Source of the DNA: Bacteroidales bacterium
GTDB lineage: Bacteria > Bacteroidota > Bacteroidia > Bacteroidales > F082
Length of the DNA stretch: 39,646 nt
Assembly (NCBI GenBank): GCA_017632935.1
Contig: JAGBQJ010000032.1
Location: forward strand, 1 to 39,646
Direction: 5' to 3'
Positions 388 through 9,239 of this stretch are shown here, piece after piece. The stretch's first letter is position 1; each line of letters opens with the position of its first letter. The translations under genes and the position numbers were made by a program. Below the pieces are notes generated by a model. The model was not told where the DNA came from. It saw nothing but the letters and a program-made list of their open reading frames with translations, and made no database searches.

Positions 388-526
388 GGTTTTCTTTTCG
401 ATTTTTCGCATTAATTTTCTTCAAAATGTCGCAAACAAGCATTTATACATCTGATAAATAGACGCTTACGCTTTTACATTAATTGCACAAATTAAACAAA
501 AATGTGATTTGTCTCATAAAAATACG

Positions 527-534
527 TACCTTTG
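527..534 (+). promoter_or_regulatory. -7 promoter element of the ECF sigma gene
   Basis: TACCTTTG matches TAnnTTTG and lies 41 bases before the ATG at 576. A TTTG at 508-511 is a possible -33 element, but its 15-base spacer is shorter than usual. This suggests the sigma gene can be transcribed by the housekeeping sigma factor. Confidence 0.5.
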
Positions 535-575
535 CCGCCGATTTTTGCACAAGGCAGCACATACCTTATTAATTA

Positions 576-1118
576 ATGAACGAAAACGAGCTTAAGGTAC
601 TTATCGAAAAAATGAAAGGCGGCGACAGGGAGTCGTTCAACCAGATTTTCCGTCGCTACTACACGCCTTTGACCCGTTTTTGTGTCCGGTTCGTGGCCGA
701 TGGCGACCAAGCCGCAGAGATTGTGCAAGACCTTTTCGTGAAACTTTGGACCAACCGTGAAAAGCTGACTTTCAACACCTCGTTCGAGTCATATATGCTG
801 CGTGCGGTGCGCAACTCGGCCATCACCTACATTAATAAGGAACGCGCCCACACCGACGTCAACGAGCGCATCTACACCGACGATTCGGATGCCACCGACC
901 CTTCGGAGACTTTGCAGTCCAACAACTTGGAAGCCTCTTACCAAAAGGTCTTGGCCACCATGCCCGAAAAACGCCGCGAAGTGTTTTTGGCCAGCCGATT
1001 CGATGGACTGAAATACGCCGAAATCGCAACAAAAATGGGACTGTCGCAAAAAACCGTCGAGGCCCACATGAGCGCGGCCATCAAGCAACTTAGGGAAGGT
1101 TTGAAAGAGTATCTCTGA
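576..1118 (+). CDS. ECF-family RNA polymerase sigma-70 factor
   Basis: This 180-residue protein has the two-domain layout of ECF sigma factors. Region 2 spans about residues 10-95 and includes FNQIFRRYYTPLTRFC and EIVQDLFVKLW, the -10 recognition helix. Region 4 spans about 120-172 and contains the helix-turn-helix FDGLKYAEIATKMGLSQKTV. The length and the EIVQDLFVKLW wording fit the group expanded in Bacteroides. The start ATG at 576 follows an AT-rich leader. A FecR-like anti-sigma gene lies 164 bases downstream, so the expected model is release of this factor on a signal from the outer membrane. Its natural targets are inferred to be the genes downstream to 9239; no binding site was proven. 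Confidence 0.95.
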   Translation: MNENELKVLIEKMKGGDRESFNQIFRRYYTPLTRFCVRFVADGDQAAEIVQDLFVKLWTNREKLTFNTSFESYMLRAVRNSAITYINKERAHTDVNERIYTDDSDATDPSETLQSNNLEASYQKVLATMPEKRREVFLASRFDGLKYAEIATKMGLSQKTVEAHMSAAIKQLREGLKEYL

Positions 1119-1124
1119 CCCCGC

Positions 1125-1176
1125 TGCGGTCCCTGAGCCTGCGGTTGCTGAACGAAGCCGAAGCATCGAAGGGCCG
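1125..1176. repeat. Dispersed palindromic repeat, family B (CCCTGAGC...GAAGGGCC), sigma-anti-sigma gap
   Basis: Seven bases after the sigma stop codon lies an imperfect inverted repeat with arms TGCGGTCCCT and AGGGCCGCA around a 30-base middle. The end motifs GGTCCCTGAGC and CGAAGGGCC recur at 32106-32151 and 37024-37047. It accounts for much of the 164-base gap before the fecR-like gene; I saw no clear promoter in the rest of the gap. Confidence 0.65.
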
Positions 1177-1282
1177 CATTAATGAAACCTGCAAAAATTA
1201 ATCGATTTTTTTTGTTTTCGACTAAGGGTAAAACCAAAGTTATTAGTCTTTTAAGTGAATCGATGAGATAAAAACGATTGAT

Positions 1283-2305
1283 ATGTACTCGGCAAACGAC
1301 AAATATGAAGCTTTGATTATGAGCTACTTAGACGGGCAATGCTCGGCTGAGGAAGCCCATAAACTGCTTTTGTGGGTGGCCGAGTCGGAAGAAAATCGTT
1401 TGTATTTCAACTCGCTCAAAGACCAATACGAGGTGTGGAACCTCACCGACTTCGCCATGCCTGAGTTTGACGAGGCCGATGTGGAAGCCGCCCTTGACGC
1501 CATCAACGCCAAGATTGACGCCATCGAAGAGACCGAGACCAAGGTGGTACAGATGCCTTGGCTCCGCAGGAACTACAAATACGTTTCCGGCGTGGCCGCT
1601 GCGCTCATCATCGCCTTGTTTGTGGGCTTCCTCGTGCGCAATCCTTTCAACTCGACCGTGACCTACGCCTACAACGGCCAGAACGAGTCGTCATACACCC
1701 TGCCTGACGGCACTTCGGTCAACTTCAACAGCGAAGGCACCCTGAGCCATCCCAAGCATTTCGCCAAATCGGAGCGTTCCGTCAACTTCGAAGGCGTCGC
1801 CTATTTCGATGTCGCTAAAGACGAAGCCCATCCCTTCGTGCTCCATTGCAACAACATGGATGTGGAAGTGCTGGGTACCAGCTTCCTGCTGAATGCCGGC
1901 AAGAACGCCGAGCGTTATACCGTCGACCTCTACACGGGCAAGGTAAAGATGACCTCTTTTGACGAAAAGGGTAATATCTTGTCGGTGGTGGAAATCAACC
2001 CGGGCGAGCGCGGCGTGTGGAATGCCACCGAAAGCGAGTTAAAGACGATGAGCTATTCCGAGGTGAAAGAAGACGAGTTGTTGACCAACCATGTCCTTGT
2101 GTTCGACAACGAGAAGCTGTCGAAGATTGTTGAAGCATTAGAGTACATCTACAAGGTTGAAATCAACCTCAGCGAATCCTGCGCCTCCAAGAAACTCACC
2201 GCCCGCTTCTCCGACGACGAATCCATCGACGAAGTGCTCGAGACCATCGCCGTTGTGACAGAAGTGACAGTCACCAAGGAAGGCGAAATCTATCAGATTC
2301 GCTAA
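1283..2305 (+). CDS. FecR-family anti-sigma factor (FecR domain plus DUF4974)
   Basis: This 340-residue inner-membrane protein is the expected partner of the preceding ECF sigma factor. The cytoplasmic N-terminal part (about 1-95) would bind the sigma factor. One membrane segment, VSGVAAALIIALFVGFLV, lies at about 101-118. The periplasmic FecR domain includes YTLPDGTSVNFNSEGTL, the VAYFDVAKDEAHPFVL strand pair and VLGTSFLL. The C-terminal part from about 265 (VLVFDNEKLSKIVEALE) matches the DUF4974/STN-like ending common in Bacteroidetes FecR proteins. Known homologues receive a signal from an outer-membrane protein through an STN domain; the gene downstream encodes such a domain. The length is normal for the family and there is no sign of damage. 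Confidence 0.94.
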   Translation: MYSANDKYEALIMSYLDGQCSAEEAHKLLLWVAESEENRLYFNSLKDQYEVWNLTDFAMPEFDEADVEAALDAINAKIDAIEETETKVVQMPWLRRNYKYVSGVAAALIIALFVGFLVRNPFNSTVTYAYNGQNESSYTLPDGTSVNFNSEGTLSHPKHFAKSERSVNFEGVAYFDVAKDEAHPFVLHCNNMDVEVLGTSFLLNAGKNAERYTVDLYTGKVKMTSFDEKGNILSVVEINPGERGVWNATESELKTMSYSEVKEDELLTNHVLVFDNEKLSKIVEALEYIYKVEINLSESCASKKLTARFSDDESIDEVLETIAVVTEVTVTKEGEIYQIR

Positions 2306-2338
2306 TCCAATATTCCTTTCCAAAGTCATTTTTTCAAG

Positions 2339-2363
2339 GAAATGAGAGCACTCTCATTTTTTT
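2339..2363 (+). terminator. Hairpin with T-run between the anti-sigma and STN genes
   Basis: AATGAGAG and CTCTCATT form an almost loopless 8-base-pair stem, followed by seven Ts. It ends 37 bases before the next start, so it may stop or attenuate transcription between the signalling pair and the outer-membrane/cargo genes. Imperfect -7-like strings (TATCTTAG at 2369, TATTTTG at 2381) follow it. Confidence 0.55.
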
Positions 2364-2400
2364 GTCGTATCTTAGCGGCCTATTTTGAAATCCTTTGGAA

Positions 2401-3699
2401 ATGGAATATCCGCATCTCAATATACCTAAACTGCGTTGGATGCCGCTGTTGTTGCTGTTTTTCTTGGTCATAGCTCTTCCACAACGCTCCCAAGCCCAGT
2501 CGTTTAATCCCCTGATTTCGTTCTCGGTCGAGTCGTGCACCTTGGACAAGGCCTTAGAGAAACTCTTCGCCGACTACGAACTGAATGTGGCCTTCAGCAA
2601 GGCTGAGTTGAGCAAAATACGCATCGAGAGATATTCCTGTTCCTACAAATCCGTTGAGGAGGTGCTGACCGACCTGCTGAAAGGTACCGACTATGGCTTC
2701 AAGAAAATCGGAAAGCAGTATGTAATCAAGAAAAACCAGCAGCTCGCCAATGACCCAATAGCCACGGTGACACCCCCTAACGACCCTAAAACCGAGGTCG
2801 TCAAGTCGAAACGCGACACAATAATCACCAAAACAGGTGACACTATCCGCATCTATGACACCCTGCAAATCATCCGCACCGTGATGCGCTATGACACCAT
2901 AGTTCAGGTGAAACACGAAGTGCAAACCGACACGGTGTATCAGGTGAAATACAGAGGTTTGGAAATTCCTTGGCCTAAATTCCGCAACAACGGCTGGTTT
3001 ATCACCCCTTCAATAGCCTTAGGCTTGGCACAATTCAAGCATGAAGCTGACATGCCTGCGCTTGATAACGGCTCCGTCGACGTGACCCCAAGTCTGGTAT
3101 ATAGCCTCGGCCTCGATGGAGGCTACAAATACAACCGCCTCAGCAGCGGCATGAGCCTCGGCTACCGCTCAGTGCGCTACCGCTTCCTGCTGGATCAGAC
3201 CGTGTTTTCTGGGGACTATTACGTCAACGATACTTTGGACACTTATTACGTGGTGCATCCTGCGGGCGACACCACCTATCAATACATTCTGGATTCAACT
3301 TACATCCCGCTGACCACGACACACTATGCCTATCGTGATGTCAACCGTCTGGATTACTTGACCATCGGGCTCTTTGCCGCCTTTGATTTTGTCAAGATGG
3401 AGCATTTCAGGGCTTTCATCAAAGCAGGTGCCTCGGTGGATATCCTTGTCGATTATGCCGGCTCGCTCAATGCAACCGAGTCACCCTTCCATGCGCCCAT
3501 CACCCAAACACAAGTAGAGCCAGTGCGTCTTTCCTATTACGGTGGTCTGGGTGTCGCCTGGAAGGTGGCCAACCGTATCGAATTCGTGCCTGAGGTACAT
3601 TACCGCGTGACCAACGGCTCCTTGTATCGTGCCGACTTCCCCTTCGACATGAGAATGCGCCTGTGGGACTTCCGTTTGGGTCTGACCTATTACTTCTAA
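2401..3699 (+). CDS. Outer-membrane protein with N-terminal STN domain and C-terminal beta-barrel
   Basis: The 432-residue product begins MEYPHLNIPK; the in-frame TTG at 2395 is a weaker start. A signal peptide ends near AQSF. An STN (secretin/TonB short N-terminal) domain follows at about 40-115: FSVESCTLDKALEKLF, then SYKSVEEVLTDLLKGTDY and KQYVIKK. A linker rich in DTI/DTV motifs (about 135-195) follows. The remainder alternates polar and aromatic residues like a small beta-barrel and ends in LGLTYYF, a terminal Phe typical of outer-membrane proteins. I see no plug domain and no room for a 22-strand TonB receptor. The STN domain is the part that speaks to FecR proteins, so this is inferred to be the signal receiver for the upstream anti-sigma factor. 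The next gene starts 3 bases after its stop. Confidence 0.8.
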   Translation: MEYPHLNIPKLRWMPLLLLFFLVIALPQRSQAQSFNPLISFSVESCTLDKALEKLFADYELNVAFSKAELSKIRIERYSCSYKSVEEVLTDLLKGTDYGFKKIGKQYVIKKNQQLANDPIATVTPPNDPKTEVVKSKRDTIITKTGDTIRIYDTLQIIRTVMRYDTIVQVKHEVQTDTVYQVKYRGLEIPWPKFRNNGWFITPSIALGLAQFKHEADMPALDNGSVDVTPSLVYSLGLDGGYKYNRLSSGMSLGYRSVRYRFLLDQTVFSGDYYVNDTLDTYYVVHPAGDTTYQYILDSTYIPLTTTHYAYRDVNRLDYLTIGLFAAFDFVKMEHFRAFIKAGASVDILVDYAGSLNATESPFHAPITQTQVEPVRLSYYGGLGVAWKVANRIEFVPEVHYRVTNGSLYRADFPFDMRMRLWDFRLGLTYYF

Positions 3700-3702
3700 A
3701 CC

Positions 3703-6696
3703 ATGAAACCGCTCAAGCACATACGGCATCTCTTGCTCCTGCTCTTCTTGGCGCAGGGACTGTGGGTCGAGGCGCAACATTACGTCCCGATTAACGGCGA
3801 GATTGATTCGTTGTTGGTGTTGCCGAAACTGGGTGGCGATTCGGTGTACTTTGTGAGTGAGTCACTGACTGTAAAAAGCAGTGGTACGCTTCGCGTGGAA
3901 AGCGGCACAAAGATATACTTCGGGCAATCGGCGGCCCTGCGTGTCGACGGTGGCAACCTGCTGCTTGAAGGTCAACGCAACGACTCGATTTATCTGCTCT
4001 GTTATGAGTTCTCACACGATTGGGGAGGTGTTTCGTTGAAAAACATTACCGAGGAAGACACGGTGAGGATTTCGTATGTCGAAGTTGTGGGGGCCCTAAC
4101 CGCTTTAAGTGCTTCTGCCAGCAACCATGTGCTTGTCAACCATTGCTCATTCAACAACTATTATGCGGGAAAAGGTATCGAGCTCTCCAACTGCAATAAC
4201 TGCTTGGTAGACAGCTGTTTCTTCTTCCAATGCGTGTCAGGCATTGAACTAAAGGCAAGTACCGCCGACAGCGAAGACAACGTCTTTTCGCACAATGTTT
4301 TCGATCAGGGGCAAATTAATATTGGGATTTCCAACACAGGCTATGGCTTCAAGTGCAACCGCAACCATGTCGTGGACAACTGCTTCCAAGGCGCGGCAAC
4401 GGCCATCAACTTTGAAACTGTGGGCGGCATCTCCGACAGAGACGCGACCAACTACATAGAAAACAACCTCATCTCATCGGAGCTACCGGAAGGCGGATCG
4501 GGCTATTCTTCGTACGGAGTGAAAGCCGCCATGGACTCAATCGTCCTCCGCAACAATGTGTTCTGGGGCAACGACGAAGCCATCCGTATGATGCGAGTAT
4601 GCCACCTTGTCGTTGACCACAACACATTCTATGACAATGATTTAACTATAACTAACCTATTTGCAGAAGGCTCTATCACCTTCATCGGCAACACCATCAG
4701 CGAGGCAAAAAACAGGATTGTGAACTTTCCCTCCGACAAGTCGCGGATGAACGGCAATAATTTCCTGCATTACAAGAAAAACACGACCCTCTTTGCCAAT
4801 GTCACAAGCGACGACATCGACATGCGCGGCAATTACTGGGATGCCGAAACCACTGCCGACATCGAATCTGTTATTCTCGACCAGCACGATTCGCCAGCCT
4901 TGGGTGAAATCATTTATGAGAACAACCTTCCCGAATGCGACACTACTGTGCCCATCGCACCGCCTTTCCTGGTGAAGAAGCAGTTTGTGAACAACCGTTG
5001 GCTGATCTCCTGGGACGAGAACTTGGAGCAGGATGTCGACCATTACGTCCTGTTTTACGGCAATTTCAACTACTACAAATTTGCTAACCACATTGACAAC
5101 ATCACTGATAATTCCTATATCCTCACGCCACAACAAGCTGAGAACGTTGCCATTATGGCATGCGACCGTCCTTACAATCCCGATGTGTATGCCTCGGTCG
5201 GACAGAGTGCCTACGCCTTCGCCAACTATTACCCCTATGCGGGTCTAGATGGCACGCTTTGTTCCTCACAATCAGATTATTCCATCAACGATGCCAACAT
5301 ACCATACATTTACAGTAGTTTCGTTTGGCAGACCTCGGGCACAGGTGTGTTCTCTGACTCATTAGCATTGAGCACCAGCTACTATCCTTCTGACGAAGAC
5401 TATGACGCAGGAGAAGTGACCCTAACCTTGAGCGTAACCAACAATGGCATGACCAAGACCGACGCCATGCATCTGGAATTGCATAAGGCTTTGAGCGTGT
5501 ATGCCGGCGAAGATAGTTATAGTGGTATCAACCGGCCGTTATTACTTCAACAAGCTGAAGTGCTCAACCAAGACTCACTGCTATGGCATTCCATGGGTGA
5601 TGGCCATTTCGAGGATTCTTTGGCTTTACAGACTCTTTACTATCCAGGTGAACGCGACAAAGAGCAAGGCTACGTGGAACTGGAACTCGAAGCCTGGTCA
5701 TTCTGCGGCCATGCCTCCGACAGGGTGCGTTTCGAGCTGTTCAAAGACTATGCCCTTGAAGGCAAGACTTGGTCAGGAGGCGTGTTGAGGCCGCACACCC
5801 AAGTGCTTGCTGCCGCTTTGAGCGACGACAACCCCTTTGTCTCAGGCTTCTATCGCACGGTTTCAGACGATGAAGGTTTCTTCAAGTTCGATGCCCTTTT
5901 ACCTGACACCTACATCCTCTACGCCTTCCCCGACACCTTGGATGCGGAGGCCGGTGGCTGCTATTACCTCGGCGACCTGCAATGGAACGAATCGAACATG
6001 ATCGAGGTGGATGGCAATGTCTATGACGTGGACATAGCCCTGCCCAAGATGGAGTCCGGCTTCCACACGGGCGAAGGCAGCATCAGCGGCGTGTTCGACT
6101 ACCCCGACAATCCCTTCAAAGCCCGTGACTTCTATTGTCAGCCTTGGCTTCGCGAAGGCAATGATGTTTCCTACTGCTCGGAAGGTTTGTCGAATGTAGG
6201 CATCTTGCTGCTCAACGCGGGCAAGCAACGCATCTTAGGCTTCGCCTTGACGGGTCCTGATGGGCATTTCAACTTCAACGGCCTGCCTTTCGGCACTTAT
6301 CATGTGATGGCTGACCTACCGCGCTATGGCCGTGGGATGTGTGAAGAAATCACCCTCACACCTGAACAACCTTCCACAAGCGAATTGCATCTCTTCGTCA
6401 ATTCTAAAGGTCGGGTGAGCATGCGGCACCAAAACAACGACCTGCAGTCAACAACATTGCAAGTCTATCCCAACCCTGCCAAAACACTGGTGACGGTGAA
6501 CGGTTTGGACAGCAACACGACACACAGCGTCGTTGTACTCAACAGTCTAGGTATGATGGTAATGCCCGAAACCCAATTGAGTTCCAACTTGTTGGGTGAG
6601 TTATCCATTTCGGTTGACGCTTTGTCATCGGGTATATACTTCATCCAAGCGAAAAGCTCCGAAGGAACAATGATGGCCAAATTCGTTAAACGATAA
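3703..6696 (+). CDS. Large secreted beta-helix protein with T9SS C-terminal sorting domain
   Basis: The 997-residue protein has a signal peptide (about 1-24, ending VEAQ). Residues about 60-410 look like a right-handed parallel beta-helix: short strands ending in N/D ladders, e.g. HCSFNNYYAGKGIELSNC and RNNVFWGNDEAIRMM. A fibronectin-III-like segment follows (about 420-500). Two copies of a PKD-like module (about 525-590 and 600-680) share the pattern W...G.G.F.DSLAL.T.YYP. Two carboxypeptidase-regulatory/CnaB-like folds follow (about 686-780 and 790-900). The type A T9SS sorting domain starts at VYPNPAKTLVTV and ends in KFVKR. It is expected to be exported by the Gld/Por machinery and anchored or released at the surface. 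No catalytic motif was recognised, so substrate or binding partner is unknown. It is tightly linked to the STN gene. Confidence 0.86.
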   Translation: MKPLKHIRHLLLLLFLAQGLWVEAQHYVPINGEIDSLLVLPKLGGDSVYFVSESLTVKSSGTLRVESGTKIYFGQSAALRVDGGNLLLEGQRNDSIYLLCYEFSHDWGGVSLKNITEEDTVRISYVEVVGALTALSASASNHVLVNHCSFNNYYAGKGIELSNCNNCLVDSCFFFQCVSGIELKASTADSEDNVFSHNVFDQGQINIGISNTGYGFKCNRNHVVDNCFQGAATAINFETVGGISDRDATNYIENNLISSELPEGGSGYSSYGVKAAMDSIVLRNNVFWGNDEAIRMMRVCHLVVDHNTFYDNDLTITNLFAEGSITFIGNTISEAKNRIVNFPSDKSRMNGNNFLHYKKNTTLFANVTSDDIDMRGNYWDAETTADIESVILDQHDSPALGEIIYENNLPECDTTVPIAPPFLVKKQFVNNRWLISWDENLEQDVDHYVLFYGNFNYYKFANHIDNITDNSYILTPQQAENVAIMACDRPYNPDVYASVGQSAYAFANYYPYAGLDGTLCSSQSDYSINDANIPYIYSSFVWQTSGTGVFSDSLALSTSYYPSDEDYDAGEVTLTLSVTNNGMTKTDAMHLELHKALSVYAGEDSYSGINRPLLLQQAEVLNQDSLLWHSMGDGHFEDSLALQTLYYPGERDKEQGYVELELEAWSFCGHASDRVRFELFKDYALEGKTWSGGVLRPHTQVLAAALSDDNPFVSGFYRTVSDDEGFFKFDALLPDTYILYAFPDTLDAEAGGCYYLGDLQWNESNMIEVDGNVYDVDIALPKMESGFHTGEGSISGVFDYPDNPFKARDFYCQPWLREGNDVSYCSEGLSNVGILLLNAGKQRILGFALTGPDGHFNFNGLPFGTYHVMADLPRYGRGMCEEITLTPEQPSTSELHLFVNSKGRVSMRHQNNDLQSTTLQVYPNPAKTLVTVNGLDSNTTHSVVVLNSLGMMVMPETQLSSNLLGELSISVDALSSGIYFIQAKSSEGTMMAKFVKR

Positions 6697-6697
6697 G

Positions 6698-6705
6698 AAA
6701 GGAGG
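6698..6705 (+). promoter_or_regulatory. Unusually strong Shine-Dalgarno sequence
   Basis: AAAGGAGG lies 5 bases before the ATG at 6711. Such a full anti-16S match is uncommon in Bacteroidetes, and it favours ATG 6711 over the in-frame GTG at 6708, which would be only 2 bases away. Confidence 0.6.
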
Positions 6706-6710
6706 ACGTG

Positions 6711-9239
6711 ATGAAAAGATGGACATGGGGTTTGATGGTTTTCGCCTTCCTCACTATAGGGCACAAAGCTTGGGCGCAGATCGCTGTTAGCGGTAACGTG
6801 TTCGAACAAGACAGCATTACTCCCATTGAAGCGGCCTCGGTCACCTTCTCGGGTATCAGCGTATCGGGCGACACGCTTGTTTATCAGTTTGTTACAGATG
6901 CTCTAGGTCAGTATTCCGACAGTTTGACGGCTGGCACTTATCGCGTTTGGGCCTCGGCCGAGGGCTATGCGACGACTTATCTCGAAGACTCCTTGCTTCT
7001 TGAGGAGGGACAAGCGCAAGAAGCCGTTAGCTTTATTCTCTACGAGCTGCTTCATCCCGTTCGGTATGTAGAAGCCAGACTATTCACCGATGAATTGGTG
7101 CGCATCCGTTGGTCGATGAATGACTCCATACCCCATGGGGACAGCACCAAGATAACGCGTTCTTTCCAATACTATGACCTGTTCCGTAGCCGCATCGAGG
7201 AGGCACCTGTGCTGATGGCCTCGCACCTGACCGACACGGTGTTTATGGACATGAATTGGAGTGGCCTGCCTTGGGGACAATACCGCTGGGGCGTGAGCTG
7301 CTATTATGAAGGCAACCGAAGCTATTCCGACACCATTTGGTCGGCTTATCTGGACAAGGATATGACCACCACCTTCACCCTCGATGCCACCACTAACGTG
7401 GGTCTTTCACCAGCAGGAGCTACTGTATTGCTTTCGTCACAAGACCATTCCTATCAGGCGACCTTGGATGGCGACGGTCATGTGTTGATGCCAGACGTCT
7501 ATCGCGATGCCTATGACGTTAGGGTGCATCTTGACGGTTTTGTGGACTATGTCTCAGATTCGGCGGTATCCGTTTTTGAGCCGACCCATGTTGAAATCGA
7601 GTTGATTGAAGCCACGAACGGCATCGACAGCCTGTATGTCTCTTCCACAGGTTGGGCGATATGGTCCTTAGAGGGAACACACAACCGTGATTTACAATAT
7701 TTTGAAATCATGTTAAATGGGGAAGCGGCGGGACAAACCATCAACACCTTTTTCCAATTTGAGGTCGGTGGCTTAGCAGCAGGTGACACCTGTACGGCTC
7801 AAGTGAGGCCTGTATATCTGTCAGAGACCGGTGCGTGGAAGACCTGCCAATGGGTGTATCGGCCTTGCACGGATTTCGCAGGCCCAACAAACTTGACCTG
7901 GGTGCTAGATGGAGAAGCGTTGCATCTTTCGTGGGATTATCCAGAGGGTGACTTTGTAGGCGCCATACTCTACCGCAACGGCGAGTTCCTTGCTTTCACT
8001 GAAGAGGACAACTACTTGGACGAGACCGTAGAACTGCACGGCGAGGTGGAGTACTGCCTGCGTTTGGTGTATGACGGACCCACGGACGGCACTTATTATT
8101 CCATGTCGTGCGAGCAATGCACCGTTGCTGTCTTCCCAGCCTATTGTGACCCGCCGGTCAAGTTGGACGGCATTCGCTATTTCGAAGACGAAAACGACCA
8201 CGGCGCTCTGGTGTCGTGGGGTGAGCGTCCTGAGCCCATCAATGAGTGGCTGTATTATGACAACGGCACGTTCAAGCGCTCTTTGGGCGGCGACAACGAC
8301 CCGCGTATCTTCTGGGCTATCCGCTTCGAGGCGGAGGACTTGGCCGATTATATTGGAACACACTTGAGGAAAGTGTCGCTCTATGATGTGGGCGCAGGCA
8401 CCTATCAGCTTTGGATCTATGTGGGTGGCGACACGGCGCCGCGTACCTTGGTCCGCTCCCAAAACATGGTCTTGACCAACGCGCAAGCATGGCATGAGGA
8501 AATCATCAGCCCGGCATACGATATCCCCGAGAACGAGCCACTTTGGATTGTCGTCGGACAGCAAGGCCTGTCACGACCGGCAGCCGCCTGCCAAGATATG
8601 GGAAATCCTAATGGACGTTGGGTGTCGTTGGACGGTGAGACCTGGACCGACATGCATATCTATAACATGCACTATACATGGATGTTGCGTGCCTTTGTCA
8701 CCAACCAAGCCGGACGCGAGATGGCACTCGGCAAGGAAGGTTACATCTTGCAGCAATACAAGCTGTATCGCTCGTTCGACAACGCAGACTATGAACAAGT
8801 GGCCTCAATTCCTGCCATCGAAAGCCAGCTGTATTATGAATACCGAGACAACCTGGCCGATGATGATTATGAGGATGTCTATTACCGCCTCACGGCCTAC
8901 TATCTGGCCGACAACGGCGAGACCTGCGAGTCGGACTATGCCACCACCTTGAACGACCCTGAGCAAAACTATGTGGCCATCGACCTCACCTCGACCGAAG
9001 AAAACCTTGCATCCTCGCTCAAGCTCTATCCCAATCCCACCAACGGATGCATTACTATCGAATTGGAAGGATTGCAAAAGGTGATGGTTTACAATGCCTT
9101 GGGTCAAGTCTTGCTCAGCAAAGAGGCTGACGGCGATGCCTTGCAACTGAATTTGTCGAGATTTGGGAATGGATTGTATTGGGCGAGTGTGATGACACAA
9201 AACGGAGTGGTAACACGGCGTTTCGTGCTTTCCCGTTGA
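6711..9239 (+). CDS. Large secreted multidomain protein with T9SS C-terminal sorting domain
   Basis: The 842-residue product has a signal peptide ending near KAWAQ. A carboxypeptidase-regulatory-like fold covers about 25-115 (ISVSGDTLVYQF, DALGQYSDSLTAGTYRVWA) and a second PEGA-like one about 222-305. Fibronectin-III-like segments cover about 300-500. A jelly-roll-like region at about 520-670 (GGDNDPRIFWAIRFEAEDL, LWIVVGQQG) resembles carbohydrate- or cleaved-adhesin-type modules. The T9SS sorting domain starts at LKLYPNPTNGCITIELEG and ends in RRFVLSR. It is the last gene of the sigma/anti-sigma/STN locus and shares domain style with the gene before it, so the two may act together at the surface. 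No enzyme signature was seen. ATG 6711 is chosen from the Shine-Dalgarno spacing. Confidence 0.86.
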   Translation: MKRWTWGLMVFAFLTIGHKAWAQIAVSGNVFEQDSITPIEAASVTFSGISVSGDTLVYQFVTDALGQYSDSLTAGTYRVWASAEGYATTYLEDSLLLEEGQAQEAVSFILYELLHPVRYVEARLFTDELVRIRWSMNDSIPHGDSTKITRSFQYYDLFRSRIEEAPVLMASHLTDTVFMDMNWSGLPWGQYRWGVSCYYEGNRSYSDTIWSAYLDKDMTTTFTLDATTNVGLSPAGATVLLSSQDHSYQATLDGDGHVLMPDVYRDAYDVRVHLDGFVDYVSDSAVSVFEPTHVEIELIEATNGIDSLYVSSTGWAIWSLEGTHNRDLQYFEIMLNGEAAGQTINTFFQFEVGGLAAGDTCTAQVRPVYLSETGAWKTCQWVYRPCTDFAGPTNLTWVLDGEALHLSWDYPEGDFVGAILYRNGEFLAFTEEDNYLDETVELHGEVEYCLRLVYDGPTDGTYYSMSCEQCTVAVFPAYCDPPVKLDGIRYFEDENDHGALVSWGERPEPINEWLYYDNGTFKRSLGGDNDPRIFWAIRFEAEDLADYIGTHLRKVSLYDVGAGTYQLWIYVGGDTAPRTLVRSQNMVLTNAQAWHEEIISPAYDIPENEPLWIVVGQQGLSRPAAACQDMGNPNGRWVSLDGETWTDMHIYNMHYTWMLRAFVTNQAGREMALGKEGYILQQYKLYRSFDNADYEQVASIPAIESQLYYEYRDNLADDDYEDVYYRLTAYYLADNGETCESDYATTLNDPEQNYVAIDLTSTEENLASSLKLYPNPTNGCITIELEGLQKVMVYNALGQVLLSKEADGDALQLNLSRFGNGLYWASVMTQNGVVTRRFVLSR

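Follow-up and report, generated by a model that had tools for sequence, protein, structure and literature searches.

The window analyzed here, a stretch of 39,646 nucleotides from a Bacteroidales bacterium (contig JAGBQJ010000032.1, assembly GCA_017632935.1), carries near its start a locus of five genes. They encode an extracytoplasmic function (ECF) sigma factor, a FecR-type anti-sigma factor, an STN-barrel protein, and two proteins, C1 and C2, of the kind exported by the type IX secretion system (T9SS). The source is a rumen bacterium with a genome of 2.86 Mb (62 contigs, 92% complete), and its named close relatives are chiefly rumen or gut Bacteroidales bins. With moderate confidence, we read the locus as a cell-surface signaling system of the FecR kind, with a split sensor (STN on a Dma-like barrel, plus C1) and a regulon of T9SS surface proteins. 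Gene order, folds, promoter-like elements and their placement were computed here. The features are:

508..535, forward strand: P1, the sigma gene's sigma-A-type promoter (TTTG followed by TACCTTTGC, with a TAnnTTTG -7 box), conserved in an alignment of the window with 14 relatives
576..1118, forward strand: ECF sigma gene of the TIGR02985 subfamily, the sole protein above that cut-off in the genome
1226..1250, forward strand: P2, ECF-type promoter GGGTAAAACCAAAGTTATTAGTCTT (GGGTA-N15-GTC), conserved in the genus, its form recurring between sigma and fecR in other families
1283..2305, forward strand: FecR-type anti-sigma gene, with a membrane helix near residue 100 and a FecR_C C-terminal domain
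2336..2363, forward strand: terminator-like hairpin running into a T run in the fecR-STN gap, its sequence varying in relatives and the hairpin often kept
2358..2380, forward strand: P3, element TTTTTTGTCGTATCTTAGCGGCC ahead of STN-C1-C2, with the sigma-A -7 box in a variant form, TAnnTTAGC (from the genus alignment)
2401..3699, forward strand: STN-barrel gene (432 residues: signal peptide, STN at 39-111, low-confidence linker, barrel at 197-431, conserved DT.D.YY...DT...DS loop)
3703..6696, forward strand: C1 gene, T9SS type A, with a right-handed beta-helix at about residues 27-366, CarboxypepD_reg and a sorting tail; its product is the candidate partner for the STN barrel at the surface
6708..9239, forward strand: C2 gene, T9SS type A (843 residues, CarboxypepD_reg domains)

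An initial annotation of the window had proposed these five open reading frames, with C1 beginning 3 bases past the STN stop codon, and both points were confirmed. It had also called the two cargo proteins giant, which is wrong: C1 has 997 residues and C2 843, and a giant behind a promoter probably read by the sigma factor (3081 residues) is encoded on another contig.

The sigma factor scored 167 bits against TIGR02985 (cut-off 126). FecR scored 48 bits against PF04773 and 51 bits against PF16344, both above cut-off, and its best membrane-helix candidate is at residue 100. Beside the single sigma factor of this subfamily the source genome has one STN match and two FecR matches, one of 51 bits at the locus and one of 25 bits (cut-off 24) on a different contig. 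The locus has the components of FecR-type signaling, namely an ECF sigma factor adjoining a FecR-type anti-sigma factor with a membrane helix, and an outer-membrane protein with an N-terminal STN signaling domain.

The STN-barrel gene starts at TTG 2395 or ATG 2401, the latter giving 432 residues. Its Pfam scores were marginal (PF07660 28.5 bits, cut-off 28.4; PF13568 barrel 20.6 bits, under the cut-off of 27), so the assignment was settled by structure prediction. The AlphaFold2 model (mean pLDDT 73.8) has STN-like elements at residues 39-111, a low-confidence linker at about 128-188, and a barrel at 197-431 in which we counted eight long strands and an extracellular hairpin; a plug is absent. 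The whole-protein profile matched no solved chain by sequence at E≤5, and fold comparison was therefore needed: the barrel resembles OmpA/OmpW-like barrels, and the STN fold matches PupB in complex with PupR (6ovm). The small, plug-less barrel that the initial annotation had described is borne out by this model, which shows a true STN fold and no TonB-receptor plug; neither of the outcomes named there as contrary to its model occurred. When the barrel profile was compared with seven sigma-linked Dma-like proteins, a set that did not include Bacteroides Dma1-3, the match had a Prob of 99.9 over 234 columns. The barrel thus appears related to Dma-like dual-membrane anti-sigma barrels, and the STN domain is related to the one in SusC receptors; the protein would be a hybrid, in split form, of these two established designs. 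A TonB-dependent transducer has a plug and a 22-strand barrel; with 432 residues, no Pfam plug match and a small barrel model the protein has neither, and we did not file the locus among such systems, PUMA3 being a precedent for one without.

STN protein was found in 16 of the 35 other genomes of the genus, and FecR in exactly those 16, a pairing that exceeds chance. In the 21 of these genomes that were searched for the sigma factor, it was present in the same 9 as STN and FecR. The T9SS component SprA occurred in 20 of the 21 whether the locus was present or not, and the explanation that locus presence merely follows T9SS presence was rejected on this ground. As a separate observation, SprA gave two profile stretches split near position 1573 in all ten locus-bearing genus genomes searched and in G004, G008, G010 and G013, which suggests an insertion marking a clade.

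Among 40 named loci, sigma, FecR, STN and C1 stand in order in 34, and C1 adjoins STN in 39. The exceptions are three loci cut at contig ends (L074, L076, L091), one with a poor match (L095), and two (L075, L086) with sigma and FecR absent from the 8 kb examined upstream. The same order occurs in other Bacteroidales families, where STN and C1 identity falls to about 25-30%. Searched across the order, the STN alignment found matches in 120 of 294 genomes, with 11 full-length STN barrels among the matches listed (our reading of the match table, which omits family f5, later found full length); the remaining matches were mostly STN-only in receptor-sized frames, or barrel-only. The neighborhoods in families f6, f115, f49 and f14 read sigma, FecR, STN barrel, C1 and then a large gene, of 2080-2519 residues where complete (L054, L161, L164) and cut by the sequence end in L053, L160, L162, L163 and L165; in L163 a 432-residue reading frame comes first. 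The STN part aligns across four families, and the whole profile matches in three further ones. The initial annotation had asked whether the sigma-FecR-STN-T9SS order is kept in relatives, and this synteny holds in the genus and beyond it. Its remark that such sigma factors usually pair with a SusC-like transporter agrees with 13 of 20 other sigma loci, in which the gene after fecR encodes 830-1200 residues (judged by length and sequence, not by a family scan).

Several neighboring arrangements were noted during these searches. Locus L092 lies on a Patescibacteria-labeled contig (JAHJRN010000069.1) with a Bacteroidota-type locus, probably a binning error. In L176 and L177 sigma and FecR are followed by STN proteins of 514 and 519 residues without this barrel, and upstream is a protein of 435 or 436 residues with a similar C-terminus; this arrangement is another non-receptor STN design. 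Bacteroidales Dma-like loci (L167-L173, L055) pair a sigma factor with a helix-and-barrel protein of 460-535 residues, and several then have large secreted-looking proteins, so barrel-linked control of surface proteins may extend beyond the locus studied here.

Both T9SS proteins have a Por_Secre_tail and CarboxypepD_reg, and C1 also has Beta_helix. The sorting domain (TIGR04183 / PF18962) is above cut-off in C1 (40.3 bits) and C2 (45.8 bits, both against 23) and in the giant of the source genome, G000 (48.6 against 27). Hydrophobic N-termini were seen, the genome has SprA, and export of all three is predicted. In a divergent set of nine C1 proteins (eight from other families, and L051 of the genus) the beta-helix was found in all nine and a sorting tail above cut-off in seven; the exceptions are L161 (23.7 bits, cut-off 27) and L163 (none listed). 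In the place of C1, family f5 has an RCC1 propeller protein (3 of 3) and f43 a CBM9 protein (n = 1). Many C2 relatives in the genus (L036-L047 were compared with the window) have an insert of about 140 residues after residue 145, which the window copy and L049 lack.

The link between the sigma factor and T9SS cargo comes from P2, whose genus form between sigma and fecR, in the same alignment of the window with 14 relatives, is GGGTAAA...TTAGTC. The full element has a single match in the genome at ≤3 mismatches, which is P2 itself; the reversed pattern likewise has one. GGGTA-N15-GT occurred in 9 of 25 sigma-fecR gaps compared with 0.11 of 25 in shuffles; five of the nine come from a comparison set of 17 loci that includes one STN-barrel locus, L123. 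In other families the STN-barrel loci L053 and L160-L165 have GGGTAAA-N11 or N12-TTGTC[AT] in this gap, and outside the genus the consensus can be summarized as GGGTAAA-N11-TTGTC[AT]T; variants are GGGTA or GGGTT with TTGTCAT in f5, and GGGTT in L054. By pattern, 8 of 11 loci (L053, L161, L162, L164, L165, L092, L093, L094) have a second copy of the P2 type between C1 and the large gene that comes next; in L160 a GGGTA-N15-GTC was seen by eye, and in L054 the copy is one gene further downstream. Shuffled sequence gave 6.9 pattern matches per 515 kb. The shuffles in the gap and second-copy tests, and in the hairpin test below, preserve single-base composition only.

Genome-wide, the pattern gave 37 sites in nine locus genomes against 8 for the reversed pattern, and 6 against 11 in nine genomes without the locus. 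The pattern had been taken from sigma-fecR gaps before its use elsewhere, and seven genomes (G040, G178, G334, G266, G173, G261, G206) supplied both. Of 27 off-locus sites 25 are intergenic. For 19, a gene on the same strand lies within 650 bases, and four of these genes are cut by the sequence end. Among the 15 complete genes behind such sites, 13 have a T9SS tail by a local model built partly from nine of these 13 genes, and 11 by the independent TIGR04183 cut-off (L231 was outside the NCBIfam scan). For comparison, a tail is carried by 7 of 90 other complete genes in the same stretches. Seven control sites, six from genomes without the locus and one from G329 (which carries the locus, yet had its single site fetched with this group), all lie inside open reading frames. 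A genus search with an A-for-T variant gave 32 sites against 5 controls in 17 locus genomes (STN shown in 13; FecR only in G066, G071, G081 and G083), and 4 against 5 in nine others. Of these 36 genus sites 13 are the P2 of the locus, and 12 of the other 23 were fetched and examined; the 12 comprise eight that lead to a giant gene, one (L280) with the leader only before the contig end, and three that are unrelated. The eight, in seven genomes, stand directly before one homologous gene whose product starts MK[KR]KVFSLMM. In the source genome this giant, of 3081 residues, combines a T9SS tail with Cleaved_Adhesin, DUF2436 and fn3 domains. A shared promoter element before the sigma-locus and target genes, more frequent than by chance, is what an ECF regulon would show, and sigma-dependent transcription of these genes is predicted. 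The initial annotation had suggested looking for a shared ECF promoter upstream of 2401: an ECF-type element is indeed shared and ties the sigma factor to T9SS cargo genes, but the patterns used found none directly upstream of 2401.

The gap between fecR and STN has features of its own. In most genus loci it measures about 95 bases (204 in three) and holds the hairpin with its T run and P3, whose genus form TTTTTTGTCGTAnnTTAGCGGCC is a conserved promoter-like element ahead of STN-C1-C2. The hairpin was kept in 18 of 26 distinct sequences by our count, with a mean z of -2.3 against mononucleotide shuffles; a simple promoter and terminator scan returned nothing above shuffles and did not flag it. 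Within the window P3 matches exactly once, where chance would give 0.19 matches at ≤3 mismatches; genome-wide at ≤2 mismatches it has 12 matches against 2 reversed, mostly with TTTGC. The sigma-A -7 box consensus TAnnTTTG is given in passages of PMC9723704. P3 was considered as a promoter read by the sigma factor of the locus and dropped, having no GGGTA part in common with P2 and resembling the sigma-A -7 box, a likeness that leaves its constant TTAGC unaccounted for. It stands directly before STN in four rearranged loci: fecR is 6.2 kb from STN in L058, with an insert that includes a 1651-residue BspA-type LRR protein, and 3.0 kb in L089, while upstream of STN are another large gene in L086 and unrelated genes in L075, with fecR seen in neither. 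P3-like boxes also precede STN in L051, L090 and L092-L094, and loosely in L164. P3, kept through rearrangement, and the hairpin indicate that STN-C1-C2 behaves as its own unit in the genus, and that the genes behind fecR or another P2 are the likely output.

We hypothesized a mechanism in which the sensor would be the outer-membrane STN-barrel protein together with its co-encoded T9SS partner C1 at the cell surface. The STN domain, on its flexible linker, would reach into the periplasm and contact inner-membrane FecR at its C-terminal domain. A change at the surface (ligand binding by C1, or whether exported C1 is there at all) would then alter FecR or lead to its cleavage and free the sigma factor. 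From the 6ovm match and PMC11637429 we infer by analogy that STN binds the C-terminal domain of FecR and that FecR is cut on signaling; the direction of the signal and the role of C1 as input rather than output are likewise proposed. The freed sigma factor would read GGGTAAA-N11-T[TA]GTC[AT]T, at a feedback site between sigma and fecR and at sites ahead of genes for very large T9SS surface proteins. Within the genus of the window its targets would be fecR and the Cleaved_Adhesin protein of about 3000 residues encoded elsewhere; in other families they would be fecR (with STN and C1 where these follow closely), the neighboring giant, and scattered T9SS genes.

The initial annotation had the sigma factor directly controlling the neighboring C1 and C2 as its cargo output. 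In outline this was right, given ECF-type promoters before T9SS genes, but the regulated cargo is probably encoded mainly elsewhere. The spacing of 3 bases between STN and C1 fits direct control, and so do five loci of other families (L053, L054, L160, L161, L163) in which the fecR-STN gap is -8 to 45 bases and the P3 pattern was not seen, so that a single transcript from P2 could extend as far as STN and C1. (In L165 the gap measures 292 bases, and the STN start is unsure in L162 and L164.) Within the genus, however, the hairpin and conserved P3 part fecR from STN, P3 stays at STN in the rearranged loci whether fecR is 3.0 or 6.2 kb away or not nearby, and a window scan with the patterns used found no GGGTA or ECF-type element just upstream of STN, C1 or C2. 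We consider direct control of C1 and C2 unlikely. The separate P3 unit and the sigma-linked 3081-residue cargo elsewhere make C1 more likely part of the sensor than an output of the sigma factor.

Several observations count against a split sensor with a distant T9SS regulon. The short gaps in other families imply that STN, and perhaps C1, are sigma-driven there too, so the separation of sensor and output is not general, and P3 itself may be read by an alternative sigma factor. No P2 was found in the sigma-fecR gap of L166, and the second copy in L163 is poor only. G329 (one site, four controls) and G048 (no match) depart from the trend, and some genes behind the element are non-T9SS (L211, L219) or broken (L227, L229). 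In the genus the giant-side site is unconfirmed in 10 of 17 locus genomes, two of the 17 have no site, and in G000 it is a second, weaker copy (core GACTCGAT rather than AAGTTRTT).

Two further explanations would remove the signaling role or make it an ordinary one. The STN barrel might mainly anchor or export C1, in the manner of PorP, with sigma and FecR as neighbors with another task; type B T9SS cargo is reported to associate with PorP-like barrels (PMC9143113), and STN and C1 are tightly coupled. An anchor, however, would have no need of an STN domain, which aligns in four families, with the whole profile matching in three more; sigma, FecR and STN are co-inherited, the barrel is related to anti-sigma barrels, and the tail of C1 is type A, not type B. 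We regard this as improbable. Still more remote, to the point of being nearly negligible, is an ordinary FecI/FecR/SusC locus whose receptor has decayed. Its sigma and FecR do resemble those of SusC-type loci, but the barrel model is OmpA/OmpW-like and related to Dma-like barrels over the 234 columns, and the barrel is intact and conserved in several families; this reading was already disfavored. The split-sensor reading also has a more specific form, possible although we lean against it: a T9SS surface checkpoint, in which exported C1 (or the RCC1 propeller or CBM9 protein elsewhere) would dock outside on the STN barrel, its arrival or a bound glycan being read via FecR, with the sigma factor adjusting giant T9SS adhesins and, in four genomes, a small RNA. 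The partner would be exchangeable and the relay from barrel through STN and FecR to sigma kept.

Known systems share parts of this arrangement, as far as the available passages of the papers cited go. Like FecI/FecR/FecA and the Fox and Pup systems (PMC11637429), the locus has an ECF sigma factor, a membrane FecR-type anti-sigma factor and an outer-membrane protein with a periplasmic STN domain, whose fold here matches PupB bound to PupR; unlike them, its barrel is small, plug-less and cannot be a 22-strand TonB receptor, and its probable targets are T9SS surface proteins rather than uptake genes. PUMA3 of Pseudomonas aeruginosa (VreA/VreI/VreR, PMC2729926) also has a non-receptor STN protein and a sigma factor controlling secreted proteins and secretion components, but VreA is mostly soluble and without a barrel, and neither T9SS nor an exported partner in the C1 slot is mentioned in those passages. 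In Dma/Das of Bacteroides (PMC13088901) a Bacteroidota ECF sigma factor is likewise controlled via an outer-membrane barrel on a long disordered tether. Dma, however, has anti-sigma domain, membrane helix and barrel on one chain, whereas the locus has a separate fecR gene and STN as the link; the Dma/Das sigma factors are ECF21, and that of the locus is classed here as TIGR02985, leaving the ECF group aside. PorA-PorXY-SigP of Porphyromonas gingivalis (PMC7712824) similarly signals from a T9SS-tailed surface protein to an ECF sigma factor, but by a two-component system that controls the T9SS machinery, with no FecR or STN protein mentioned in the abstract. The SM6 promoter class of Flavobacterium psychrophilum (PMC9723704) places an ECF-type promoter ahead of T9SS-related genes; it differs in its CGT box, in serving T9SS components rather than cargo, and in having no tie to an STN sensor in the passages concerned. 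In an open-access subset of the literature, STN domain and FecR joined with T9SS or Bacteroid terms were not found, and within that subset the arrangement is not described; PMC5395568 and PMC9864904 each hold both "type IX secretion" and "FecR", the former with unrelated content.

To our knowledge, few dedicated regulators of T9SS cargo are known. The locus would unite the STN/FecR relay with barrel-tethered anti-sigma control and tie both to T9SS cargo. From its promoter element a list of candidate target genes can be drawn at once and tested directly, and the matching of giant-adhesin production to cell-surface conditions in Bacteroidota would become testable in a culturable relative.

Three minor observations concern transcripts behind the element. 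Within the genus, the P2-linked giant has a conserved leader (L274-L276, L279, L280; ACGCGTTTACTATGCATTC...) that exceeds the length needed for a promoter and is possibly a leader RNA element. In four f6 genomes (L213, L215, L217, L223; four of the 27 off-locus sites) the element is followed by about 100 bases and then a hairpin with a T run beside argS. This stretch, with a conserved CCTGATTAAA core and a C-rich part, is a possible sigma-driven small RNA; a search of Rfam with it gave no match, and since the four sequences give merely 4 consensus pairs it stays a lead. Shine-Dalgarno-like runs are uncommon in Bacteroidota. One, GAAAGGAGG, lies at window positions 6695-6705 directly before C2; counted within the window only, it does not exceed chance. 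In other families such runs occur in the leaders of P2-linked giants, 56-259 bases upstream (L053, L160-L165, L214, L225; AAAAGGAGG in L160), and their GGAGG might base-pair with the C-rich stretch of the possible small RNA.

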